Assembly (NCBI GenBank): GCA_023489435.1
Contig: JAMDCA010000024.1
Coordinates: forward strand, 1 to 47,612
DNA: 47,612 bases
Direction of reading: 5' to 3'
From: Thermoplasmatota archaeon
Lineage (GTDB): Archaea > Thermoplasmatota > Thermoplasmata > Thermoplasmatales > Thermoplasmataceae
Within the stretch, counting starts at the first letter, position 1. Every line of letters begins with the position of its first letter. The translations under genes and the position numbers were made by a program. Positions 14,908-20,257 of this stretch are shown here, one piece after another. Below the pieces are notes generated by a model. The model was not told the DNA's origin. It did no database searches and saw nothing but the letters and a program-made list of their open reading frames with translations.

Positions 14908-15750
14908 ATGTCCAGCAGAGTTAATTGGAAGTATTTTCTGCTAGTTGTTCCTACAATTATTTATGTTCTGGCCCTTTCCATCTATCCCGCCCTTTCAGTA
15001 GTATACCAAAGTTTTCAGACTCCCAGTGGACATTATACCGTCTCTAACTACACGGCCCTGGGATACTATGGACTTCAGTCAGCACTTATCGATACATTAA
15101 TAGTGAGTATTGCTGCACTGGTTTTGCAGCTTTTCCTTGCCCTTTTCATTGCAATGATTATGATGAAGCCCTTTAAGGGGAGCAAGGCTTTTTCAACCAT
15201 TGTGGTCGTTCCATTCGGCGTTGCCACTGTGGTTAGCGCCTTTGTGTTCTCTCAGATATTTAGTCCGGTGGGAGGATACGCAAATTCATTCCTTGTGGGA
15301 TTTGGTTTAAATCCAGTGAATTGGGCGGGTACTTCTGTAACTCAACTGGGTATTGTTGTATTCTCCGATTACTGGAAAAATACCCCTCTCGTCGCACTTA
15401 TTCTATTTTCAGGGTTAAGTGGACTTTCTCCTTCCATGTTCGATGCGGCCACTGTGGACGGAGCGGGACCAATGAGGAGGTTTCTCCACATAACTCTGCC
15501 TAATATGGCTCCGATAATGTCCATTGCCCTTCTCATCAGGGGAGTGAGCGAATTCAACATTTTTGCTCTGCCACTAGTGCTCATCGGATACCATCCACCA
15601 CTTATCAACACTCTAGTGTATGAGTTCTATACGACCACTTCAGGCACCATATATTATTCCTATGCAGCTGCAACAATTCTACTCGTAATCATCATGGTTT
15701 ACGCCATGTTCGTGCTTTGGAGAGGGGGTGCAAAAAACTATGCCCTCTAA
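14908..15750 (+). CDS. Sugar ABC transporter permease (MalF/UgpA type)
   Basis: Polytopic; EAA-like DAATVDGAGPMRRFLHITLPNMAPI loop. Confidence 0.9.
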   Translation: MSSRVNWKYFLLVVPTIIYVLALSIYPALSVVYQSFQTPSGHYTVSNYTALGYYGLQSALIDTLIVSIAALVLQLFLALFIAMIMMKPFKGSKAFSTIVVVPFGVATVVSAFVFSQIFSPVGGYANSFLVGFGLNPVNWAGTSVTQLGIVVFSDYWKNTPLVALILFSGLSGLSPSMFDAATVDGAGPMRRFLHITLPNMAPIMSIALLIRGVSEFNIFALPLVLIGYHPPLINTLVYEFYTTTSGTIYYSYAAATILLVIIMVYAMFVLWRGGAKNYAL

Positions 15751-16552
15751 GGTTAATTATGCAACTTACATCGGGGCAGTTCTTCTGGCAATAATCTTCC
15801 TTTACCCCCTTTACATACTTTTCATGATTACATTTGTTCCAACGTTCTACACCTTCGGGCAGTTATATCCCCCACAACTGCCCATGGGATTCACCCTCAG
15901 CAATGTTTACCAGTCCATAACCCAGTTGAATTTGATTAAGCCTGTGTTTAGAAGTACAATAGTGGCGTTCATCGTAGGCGGGCTTAGCCTTGTCCTCGGC
16001 ATTCCTGCTGCCTATGGCCTTTCCAAGCTCGGGGCACGGGTCTCGAACAAAATCATTGTACTGCTTTTTCTAATCAACATGATGCCGGGAATTGTCGTTG
16101 CAATACCAATTTCTGTGGACTTCCTCAGCCTTGGCCTGGCAAACATATATGGAGTAGCATTAGCTCAGGAGCTTGTAGTTTTACCACTGTCAGTGTTCAT
16201 AATGCTAGGTGGTTTCAGGGCACTTCCCAGGGACCTGGAGAATCAGGCAAGAGTTGACGGGGCATCATTGGGAACCACCATGTTAAGGGTTCTGATACCA
16301 CTTAACCGGGCCCCCATTATCGTGGCATTCCTGCTTTCATGGATGACATCATGGGATGAGTTCACCTACGCAGTGATCATATCTCCAACAAGTTCCACGT
16401 TCCCGGTTCAGCTTTATAATTATGTCACGAGGGGCGTTCCCTATGAAGCATCGGCCATCTCCCTTATCGTGACAATTCCTGTGATAATAATTGCTGCAGT
16501 GCTCCAGAAGTATCTTAAAAGTCAGTATTTAACAGGAGGCATGACCATATGA
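15728..16552 (+). CDS. Sugar ABC transporter permease (MalG/UgpE type)
   Basis: ENQARVDGASLGTTMLRVLIPLNRAPI EAA loop; overlaps upstream permease. Confidence 0.9.
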   Translation: MQKTMPSKVNYATYIGAVLLAIIFLYPLYILFMITFVPTFYTFGQLYPPQLPMGFTLSNVYQSITQLNLIKPVFRSTIVAFIVGGLSLVLGIPAAYGLSKLGARVSNKIIVLLFLINMMPGIVVAIPISVDFLSLGLANIYGVALAQELVVLPLSVFIMLGGFRALPRDLENQARVDGASLGTTMLRVLIPLNRAPIIVAFLLSWMTSWDEFTYAVIISPTSSTFPVQLYNYVTRGVPYEASAISLIVTIPVIIIAAVLQKYLKSQYLTGGMTI

Positions 16553-17538
16553 CCGCAAAATTGGAATTGGTAGAAGTCAGCAAATCGTTTCGTTCTAAGC
16601 AGGTACTCAAAAAACTTTCACTTGAGGTTGAAGACGGGGAATTTCTCGTTATCCTTGGTCCGTCAGGTATGGGGAAGAGCACTTTGCTCAGATCCATTGT
16701 TGGAATTGAACCTGTTGACGGCGGAAAAGTTTTGGTAGATGGAGAGGACGTGACCAACAGGCCGGCAAACAAGAGGAATATTGCAATGGTATTCCAGAAT
16801 TATGCGCTTTATCCCACAATGTCAGTATATAAAAATATAGCATTTCCATTGAAAATGGCAGGTTACACCCGGGATAAGATCGACAAGAAGGTAAGAGAGA
16901 TTGCAGAGACCCTCAAAATCACTGAGGCACTTTCACAGAATGTTACCACATTAAGCGGAGGTCAGAAACAGAGGGTTGCTCTTGCCAGGGCCCTTGTTAG
17001 AGATCCGAAGCTCTTTCTCCTGGACGAACCACTGAGCAACCTGGACGCCAGGGTAAGATATGCTGCAAGGCAGGAACTTAAGACACTCCAGAGGGAATTG
17101 GGACACACTTTTGTCTATGTGACACATGACCAGGCTGAGGCACAGACGCTAGCGGACCGGGTTGCTGTTCTGCATAACGGAAATATTGAGCAGATAGGAA
17201 CCTACGAGGATCTCTACGAACATCCCGGGACAGAATGGCTCGGGGACTTCTTAGGAGACTATCCCATGAATTTCATAAACGGCAGCCTGGTGGGCAAAGA
17301 TGGATACAATGTGGGCTTTCGCACGAACTGGATCTCAGAAGGGAAAGCAGGCCTGAAAAGTGAAGTGGAACTTTGCCAGGCTACTGATGTAGGATACTTT
17401 GTGAGCTGTACTATTGACGGCAAACCAATAGTTGTCCAGACCTCCAGGAAATATAAGATCGGGGCAGAAGTGAAGTTTTCACTTGAAAGATTCAACCTGT
17501 ATAAAGATGGTAAACTAGAGGAAGGGACTACCGAATAA
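16549..17538 (+). CDS. Sugar ABC transporter ATP-binding protein (MalK/UgpC type)
   Basis: Walker A GPSGMGKST, LSGGQKQRVALARAL signature, LFLLDEPLSNLD Walker B. Confidence 0.95.
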   Translation: MTAKLELVEVSKSFRSKQVLKKLSLEVEDGEFLVILGPSGMGKSTLLRSIVGIEPVDGGKVLVDGEDVTNRPANKRNIAMVFQNYALYPTMSVYKNIAFPLKMAGYTRDKIDKKVREIAETLKITEALSQNVTTLSGGQKQRVALARALVRDPKLFLLDEPLSNLDARVRYAARQELKTLQRELGHTFVYVTHDQAEAQTLADRVAVLHNGNIEQIGTYEDLYEHPGTEWLGDFLGDYPMNFINGSLVGKDGYNVGFRTNWISEGKAGLKSEVELCQATDVGYFVSCTIDGKPIVVQTSRKYKIGAEVKFSLERFNLYKDGKLEEGTTE

Positions 17539-17621: not shown

Positions 17622-19034
17622 ATGGACAATCCACAAGAACCAAAACCAAAGGCAAAGAAGACCACTTTAATCGCAATTATTGCGGTAGTGGTTGTAGTGA
17701 TTGTAATTGGATCTGTTCTGGCATTGGACCCCGGTTTATATACACCTAAGACTACTACCAACGCAGCAACCCAAAAGATTTTTGTATATTCCGGACCAGG
17801 TGGCCAGAAAAACTCCGAACACCTCCTTGGAGGAGATGTTATAGCCGCAGCCCAAACAAACACCAACTCTTCCCAGAATGAAGCAATGTATCAGTTTATG
17901 GCTTACATGATGTCTGGGTCAGTACAGCAGCAATACCTCGTGCATACTGGATTCATACCAGTTGACAACTACAACGGTTCATCATCAGGGCAAGCAGTGC
18001 ATTCGTTCTATTCCAGCAGCAATGCAACAATCTCCCTGACCTATTACGATGATATAGCACCCAGTGACAGTTCGTTCGTGCAGGGAGTCATAAGCCAGTT
18101 TGAGCATGCATATCCGAACATAAAGGTAAACTACGTGAACACCGTGGCAACCTCCATACTGAGCAGCGTGGAATCTCACGTGCACACCACAAGTGCAATT
18201 GTCATGAGTATTGATAACCTCGATGTTGGCGCACTTGTCTACGGCCATTACCTGAAGAACCTTAATAACACTGCAAGCAAAATAAACCCGGCAACAACCA
18301 TAAGTTCAATCACAAACCTGACAAACTATGAGACAAAAGCATTCGGCGGAATATTTTTCCTCACAGAGAGAGTAAACATACCCCTTGTCTGGATAAACTA
18401 CTCAGCAATGCAGAAGGCAGGAATTAACACACCACCAACCACAGATGCCCAGCTTTTGCAGGATGCCAAGACCATGTACACCTACTACAAGACAGGCATG
18501 GTTAATTTCCAGGGTCACGGCGGAGCTAGCACAGCAACAGAACTTTACCAGTGGTTCGTACAGGCAGGAGGTAACCCTATGGTGTTCAACGGCACGGGTG
18601 ATATACAGGCAATGCAGTTCATATACAACCTGAGCAAGTACTTCAGCCCGGAATACAAAACATCATACTGGGCAACCTACAAGGGCCTTGCATCAAACAA
18701 GTACACCATGATGGATTACCAGTGGCCCGGTTCAGTTAACCTAACTGCACTTGGTATGCAGCCATACAATGCATCCAACACCGCATCCAATGCATCAGCC
18801 ACTGCAATAAAACAGGGAGTGTTCCTGAGAACACCAGTTCCATGGATCAGCGAGTGGCAGACCCTGATGGATAACGCCTGGACATCACTTATAGTGAACA
18901 ATGGCAACTATTCGTCAATAGCCCATGTGCTTGGAACAGAGAACGCAGCCATGTACAACTATCTCCTGACAAACTATAACTACACCGTGGCACAGAACTA
19001 TGAGAATGGAACTTACGCTCCAATTGTGAGCTAA
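17622..19034 (+). CDS. ABC transporter sugar-binding protein, membrane-anchored, with apparently rearranged segment order
   Basis: N-terminal TM anchor; LTYYDD...FVQGVISQFEHAYPNIKVNYVNT (family 1 SBP N-lobe); RTPVPWISEWQTLMDNAW (SBP C-terminus); GGDVIAAAQTNTNSSQNEAMYQFMAYMMSGSVQQQYLVHTGFIPVDNY found near the N-terminus. Confidence 0.85.
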   Translation: MDNPQEPKPKAKKTTLIAIIAVVVVVIVIGSVLALDPGLYTPKTTTNAATQKIFVYSGPGGQKNSEHLLGGDVIAAAQTNTNSSQNEAMYQFMAYMMSGSVQQQYLVHTGFIPVDNYNGSSSGQAVHSFYSSSNATISLTYYDDIAPSDSSFVQGVISQFEHAYPNIKVNYVNTVATSILSSVESHVHTTSAIVMSIDNLDVGALVYGHYLKNLNNTASKINPATTISSITNLTNYETKAFGGIFFLTERVNIPLVWINYSAMQKAGINTPPTTDAQLLQDAKTMYTYYKTGMVNFQGHGGASTATELYQWFVQAGGNPMVFNGTGDIQAMQFIYNLSKYFSPEYKTSYWATYKGLASNKYTMMDYQWPGSVNLTALGMQPYNASNTASNASATAIKQGVFLRTPVPWISEWQTLMDNAWTSLIVNNGNYSSIAHVLGTENAAMYNYLLTNYNYTVAQNYENGTYAPIVS

Positions 19035-19081: not shown

Positions 19082-20257
19082 TTGACTTTTATGCATATAG
19101 ACAGCTCAGTAGAGAAACTGAAAACCCCAGAGGGATCACTCTATGCAGGGCTTCCTAAATTCAAAGCCCTGTTCGGGCGGGATTCACTCATCTCCTCAAT
19201 TGCTTTACTTGATTATGACAGCAGTATTGCCCTGTCCACACTGAAATCACTCTGCGGGCTTCAGGGAATGAAAATCAATGACATGACGCTGGAAGAACCT
19301 GGCAAGATCATACATGAAATCCAGCAGGATGCAGATCTCATAAATTCAAGAAACAGGGATGTGCCTTGGCTGAAGCAAGGCAGGAATTACTTCTCTGTTG
19401 ACAGTACTCCTCTTTATGTTATACTTTACCACAGGTTGATGGAAAAGGACCCTGCCCTGTTCAATGACATGGTGCTGCGGAATTCAGTGTTAGACGCCCT
19501 CACGTGGATTGTTGACTATGGCTTCAAAGGCAACTTTTTATGTTACAACAAAGCATCGAAAGGCCGGGGCCTGCAGTCACAATCATGGCGGGACGGCATT
19601 GGCGCAGTTCTTGAAAACCTCAAGGATCCTGTTGCAGTTGTTGGAGTTCAAGGATACGCCTACTCTGCATTGAAAATCGGGCTCAAAATCCTTGAAAGGT
19701 CGGGATTAAGGGAAAGCAAGAGCGAATTATATGACAAAATTGAAAATACCGTTGAAAAGCTCAGAGGTCACTTCCAGGACAACTTTTTCCTTGAGGAAAC
19801 AGGTTATTATGCTTTGGCGACAGATGGCGACGGCATTGCGGAAAAAACTATTTCCAGCGACCCTGGCCATCTTCTTTTTTCAGGCATTCTCCACAAGAAC
19901 GAAGAACGAATAGTCATTGACAGGCTCTTTGAAAGCGACCTTATGACTGACTACGGGATCAGGTGCCTTTCTTCCAAGTCACAGTATTTTGATGCCAAAG
20001 CTTACCAGAGGGGAAGCGTATGGCCCCATGATAATTTTCTTATAGCCATGGGTCTCGAGGAAAGAGAATACCACCAACAGGCAGGAGAAATTGGAAAGAG
20101 GGTTTCAGAGGCTCTCGAACTAATTGACGGGTTCCCGGAATATTATGGTGTGGACATGAACGGTAAGCTCATACCTTCCAAAAAGATGAGGATTGTGCCC
20201 TGTGATCCACAGGCGTGGACTGCAGGTGCTTACTATTATTTCAACAGGGGGCATTGA
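19082..20257 (+). CDS. Amylo-alpha-1,6-glucosidase / glycogen-debranching C-domain-like glycosidase
   Basis: LPKFKALFGRDSLISSIALL...EEPGKIIHEIQ, GLQSQSWRDG, RGSVWPHDNFLIAMGL. Confidence 0.82.
   Translation: MTFMHIDSSVEKLKTPEGSLYAGLPKFKALFGRDSLISSIALLDYDSSIALSTLKSLCGLQGMKINDMTLEEPGKIIHEIQQDADLINSRNRDVPWLKQGRNYFSVDSTPLYVILYHRLMEKDPALFNDMVLRNSVLDALTWIVDYGFKGNFLCYNKASKGRGLQSQSWRDGIGAVLENLKDPVAVVGVQGYAYSALKIGLKILERSGLRESKSELYDKIENTVEKLRGHFQDNFFLEETGYYALATDGDGIAEKTISSDPGHLLFSGILHKNEERIVIDRLFESDLMTDYGIRCLSSKSQYFDAKAYQRGSVWPHDNFLIAMGLEEREYHQQAGEIGKRVSEALELIDGFPEYYGVDMNGKLIPSKKMRIVPCDPQAWTAGAYYYFNRGH

Follow-up and report, generated by a model that had tools for sequence, protein, structure and literature searches.

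Is the solute-binding protein (SBP) encoded at positions 17622–19034 of the window (the whole stretch of archaeal DNA analysed here, 47,612 nucleotides long) built in the order usual for its class, or has a part of it been moved? The first-pass annotation, comparing the sequence with the usual family pattern, described a family-1-type ABC sugar-binding protein in which a segment normally close to the C-terminus (here called C) follows directly on the membrane anchor, so that the four segments read C-A-B-D, with no second C between B and D and in an order that is not a simple circular permutation. Every sequence test applied here upheld the relocation. The explanation that we favor, with a probability of roughly 0.85, is that the gene encodes the membrane-tethered sugar SBP of a saccharide importer, in which segment C was relocated once and the fold was most likely kept, with only the threading of the chain changed. 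The coordinates of the gene, the segments of its product and the neighboring genes are collected in Table 1.

Table 1. Location of the permuted gene, its segments and the adjacent genes in the window.
Feature	Position (nt)	Strand	Remarks
Permuted solute-binding protein gene	17622..19034	+	470 aa; segment order anchor-C-A-B-D
N-terminal membrane anchor, residues 13-35	17658..17726	+	hydrophobic stretch; helix 13-34 in low-confidence model
Relocated segment C, residues 50-117	17769..17972	+	canonical-only HMM E = 3e-15; hhalign; PDB matches
New C-to-A linker, residues 118-132	17973..18017	+	length 11-19 residues, variable among relatives
Segment A, residues 133-250, corresponding to N-I	18018..18371	+	HMM E = 6e-29; PDB 9xf5 match
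Segment B, residues 251-379, corresponding to C-I minus its last strand	18372..18758	+	HMM E = 1e-53
New B-to-D junction, residues 380-396; site of C in canonical relatives	18759..18809	+	hhalign gap; reinsertion optimum
Segment D, residues 397-470, hinge-III arginine (R403) and C-II	18810..19031	+	HMM E = 3e-29
ABC permease 1	14908..15750	+	Pfam BPD_transp_1 E = 1.4e-7
ABC permease 2	15728..16552	+	Pfam BPD_transp_1 E = 9.4e-13
ABC transporter ATPase, UgpC/MalK-like	16549..17538	+	Pfam ABC_tran E = 3.6e-37; UgpC model below cut-off
Glycoside hydrolase, GH63/MGH1-like	19082..20257	+	Pfam MGH1-like_GH E = 2.2e-9

Order of the segments

The protein starts with a short basic tail, continues with a single transmembrane helix and is soluble over the remainder of its length. 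Hidden Markov models (HMMs) of segments A, B, C and D, built from canonical proteins only, located C at residues 50–115 of the window protein, A at 134–240, B at 241–370 and D at 394–469 (E-values in Table 1). The same models yielded the order C-A-B-D in all 26 proteins of the permuted clade and A-B-C-D in all 24 canonical relatives, while composition-shuffled proteins gave no matches to any of them. In the canonical relatives this C motif, YPGPxGPVNxxHLLGGDV, is found between B and D. Their matches fell into three distinct blocks, which lie on the DNA in the order A-B, C, D.

The permuted order differs from the A-B-C-D order of the family-1 SBPs (Pfam SBP_bac_1 and SBP_bac_8), which the canonical sisters match with E-values from 8e-16 to 3e-24. 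The window protein alone matches no Pfam and no NCBIfam model, and profile annotation can thus miss permuted SBPs; SBP_bac_1 is matched by 19 of 23 permuted members (best E-value 6e-12) and SBP_bac_8 by 17. No rotation of A-B-C-D yields C-A-B-D, so the arrangement is not a circular permutation of the whole protein. When the N-lobe is considered alone, its two parts are circularly permuted.

Profile-profile alignment with hhalign matched segment C to canonical positions 305–375 (E = 4.9e-18), confirming that residues 50–117 do correspond to the C-terminal SBP segment, and aligned A-B-D (residues 133–470) with canonical positions 55–465, leaving a gap of ~70 columns at the old site of C. Neither the canonical HMMs nor hhalign detected a second copy of C between B and D in the window protein. 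In a separate test, C was excised and put back in silico at every second position, and each resulting sequence was scored against the canonical model by its best single domain. The score rose from 293.9 bits for the native order to 452.3 bits, with the peak at native residue 386, the junction of B and D. Since C is matched by the canonical HMMs and its reinsertion at the B/D junction maximizes the score, C is the segment that is missing there. These comparisons, together with the trees described below, establish the relocation of C. The alignment fixes the start and end of the moved piece only to within several residues; in several relatives C can be extended by alignment to about residue 130 (nt 18011), and residues 50–117 probably understate its length slightly.

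Distribution and origin

Among 117 genomes of the order, a search with the whole protein found full-length relatives in 26 and fragments in six more, all in the window's own family. The 26 full-length permuted genes span 10 genera of this one family within the Thermoplasmata. Named records among the carriers include the Thermoplasmata metagenome-assembled genomes JAKAYK, JAKAWU, JAKATM and JAJZXS and the Ferroplasmaceae archaeon UBA567. No permuted protein was found outside the family in 400 class-level and 390 phylum-level genomes, and no relatives were found on viral contigs. The window comes from a draft genome of 52 contigs, which might raise the suspicion of an assembly artefact or of a chance likeness of motifs. 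We regard both as practically negligible and reject them, as the same order occurs in 26 genomes, two of them single-contig (G017 and G099), and as the hhalign E-value and the shuffled controls given above argue against chance.

Individual genomes add two observations. One genome of the window's genus (G004) encodes a permuted SBP alongside a canonical relative (L007 and L026). In another, half-complete genome the permuted copy is broken over three open frames (G012:C8:85777-87212; L019, L027), which points to decay of the gene or to errors in sequencing.

In a tree of segments A, B and D, with canonical proteins as outgroups, the permuted proteins form one clade (support 100/99), which requires one change of order; they again form one clade in a tree of C alone, which is based on only 83 columns. 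The nearest canonical group to the permuted clade was not singled out by the tree. With all permuted genes in one clade a single event suffices, and the outgroups give its direction: the canonical order is ancestral. In the ancestor of the clade, a segment of about 70–80 residues left the B/D site and came to lie between the membrane anchor and A, either by duplication and partial loss or by transposing directly within the gene. A protein carrying C at both sites, as an intermediate would, was absent from the 50 proteins and was not seen in the class-level (400) and phylum-level (390) genomes, and the edges show no clear overlap of the kind that duplication and deletion might leave (C is alignable to canonical position ~380, and D restarts at ~383).

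Selection on the relocated segment

Pairwise comparison of permuted genes gave pN values far lower than pS in segment C, as in A, B and D; in the pair L047/L049, for example, C has a pN of 0.014 compared to a pS of 0.684. The new linker between C and A is the fastest-changing part in most gene pairs. Segment C is therefore under purifying selection. The rearrangement is real, the product of a single event, under selection and common to many genera.

The pN and pS values also bear on the idea that the N-terminal C serves only as a spacer or is a functionless remnant, in a protein that works with an incomplete N-lobe. This idea draws on the divergence of C, which is the segment least similar to its canonical counterparts (E-values from 1e-10 to 4e-22, compared to about 1e-50 for B) and sets the permuted proteins on a long branch (0.92) in the C tree. 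The low pN in C and the presence of C in 26 of 26 full-length genes make it very improbable.

Correspondence with solved structures

Among solved structures, the profile of the permuted proteins finds SBPs of the MalE/UgpB type, but not collinearly; the best matches are PDB entries 9lff and 9xf5. The A-B part aligns with positions 35–196 of 9lff and C with 317–376; in 9xf5 the A-B part (A and the start of B) aligns with 38–208 and C with 310–376. These matches require a profile, as segment C used as a single sequence (phmmer) had no match in the PDB. The published limits for 9xf5 are N-I 53–168, hinge I 169–171, C-I 172–315, hinge II 316–319, N-II 320–385, hinge III 386–393 and C-II 394–432 (PMC13084667). 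UgpB of Phaeobacter MED193, which from its description we take to be entry 9lff, consists of domain I (23–142 and 303–373) and domain II (147–283 and 388–433) (PMC12718374). Mapped onto these limits, segment C would start with the final C-I strand, continue through hinge II and take in most of N-II. A purely N-lobe origin of C was considered and dropped, as the 9xf5 mapping includes the last C-lobe strand and hinge II.

The GG-D/C motif of C aligns with Gly320-Gly321-Glu322 of 9xf5, where Glu322 contacts the sugar (PMC13084667), and the window protein has N252, R403 and D72 at positions aligned with ligand contacts. Residue 72 (nt 17835–17837), which aligns with Glu322, is Asp (GGD) in the window protein and the canonical proteins and Cys (GGC) in many permuted relatives.

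Structure prediction with AlphaFold, using 8-sequence alignments for both the full protein and the protein without its anchor, gave mean pLDDT values of 41 and 40, and a Foldseek search with the low-confidence model of the full protein returned no match at E ≤ 0.001. These models do not place C with confidence, and the new linker is variable (11–19 residues), as might be expected if C did not dock in its old place in its own chain and the protein instead formed a swapped dimer or had a different topology. We consider this unlikely, given that C retains the canonical motifs, including the position aligned with Glu322, and evolves under constraint like the remaining segments.

A fold that is most likely kept, with threading alone altered, has several consequences that can be read from the segment order. 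The moved piece (last C-I strand, hinge II and N-II) would lead through the linker into N-I, making the N-lobe one continuous stretch, and B (C-I) would be followed immediately by the hinge-III/C-II end. The chain would still cross between the lobes at hinges I and II, while hinge III would be severed, which predicts two covalent crossings instead of the three hinge segments of cluster D (type II) SBPs. The membrane tether would now lead into a C-lobe strand. These consequences of re-threading for hinge and tether are likely. It is fairly probable, though less so than the relocation with a conserved fold, that this is a cluster D SBP permuted naturally in a non-circular way and retained by selection, which has a contiguous N-lobe, has lost one of three hinge crossings and has its tether moved from the N-lobe to a C-lobe strand, with hinge mechanics and docking changed by re-threading alone.

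Genomic context

The order of genes in the window is two permeases, ATPase, permuted SBP and glycoside hydrolase, and the SBP gene occupies the position expected for the solute-binding protein of a sugar importer. The adjoining permease and ATPase genes agree with the assignment to the family-1-type ABC sugar SBPs. A permease pair and an ATPase adjoin the permuted gene in all 10 loci examined (among which L034 and L097 probably represent one contig), and canonical relatives have the same permease and ATPase neighbors. The SBP gene follows the permease and ATPase genes on the same strand in the window, L033 and L034, and lies on the strand opposite to them in L088–L091, L035, L037 and L039. Judging from the operon and the conservation, the Venus flytrap action is probably retained and the sugar would be passed to the adjacent permease pair. 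A glycoside hydrolase gene is also found near several permuted and canonical relatives; the one in the window, which may be a pointer to the transported sugar, has only weak matches to models of glucosylglycerate hydrolase and archaeal debranching enzyme.

Comparison with known systems

SBPs are classified by the chain crossings between their lobes. This clade appears to have altered the crossing of the lobes in one event, and its canonical sisters are available for comparison at 39–52% identity over A-B. The effect of the number of crossings on opening, closing and transport thus becomes testable, as does the question of how non-circular permutations arise in nature. With a moved piece of about 70–80 amino acids, the clade also offers a natural experiment on the extent to which a functional fold tolerates re-threading. 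Searches of the open-access literature turned up no MalE-type SBP with a non-circular permutation, and no permuted MalE-type or archaeal SBP at all.

The closest comparison is with the canonical SBPs of the same class (L079–L087 and L012–L026; SBP_bac_1, PF01547), which are homologous to the permuted proteins over A, B, C and D and share the N-terminal membrane anchor, but are ordered A-B-C-D. The best solved relatives by profile, TdCIBP (9xf5) and UgpB (9lff) of cluster D, align with both C and A-B; they too have the canonical order, and three hinges (PMC13084667, PMC12718374).

Natural permutation is also known from TpMglB-2 (Tp0684; Type Ic / Cluster Bc), the membrane-tethered sugar SBP of another ABC importer. 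It is a type I glucose-binding protein with a circular permutation in which N-lobe strands moved to the C-terminus and a fourth crossing was added; its authors suggested tethering as a possible reason for the permutation (PMC4990184). TpMglB-2 has a type I fold and a true circular permutation, whereas the window SBP is of the MalE type (cluster D) by profile match and its permutation is non-circular. TpMglB-2 gained a crossing where the window SBP would have lost one, and the piece moved in the window SBP went towards the N-terminus. The cluster D matches and this opposite direction rule out a Type Ic / Cluster Bc protein of the TpMglB-2 kind.

Natural non-circular permutations of known folds have been described elsewhere. 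The major capsid protein of BPP-1 is such a variant of the HK97 fold (PMC3863775), and a non-cyclic permutation was proposed to relate AML1/CBF and riboflavin synthase (PMC2096629). The capsid protein has an unrelated fold and its permutation is known from structure, and the AML1/CBF case rests on a structural alignment of 42 residues, whereas the permutation of the window SBP is read against homologous, unpermuted sisters that are recognizable by sequence.
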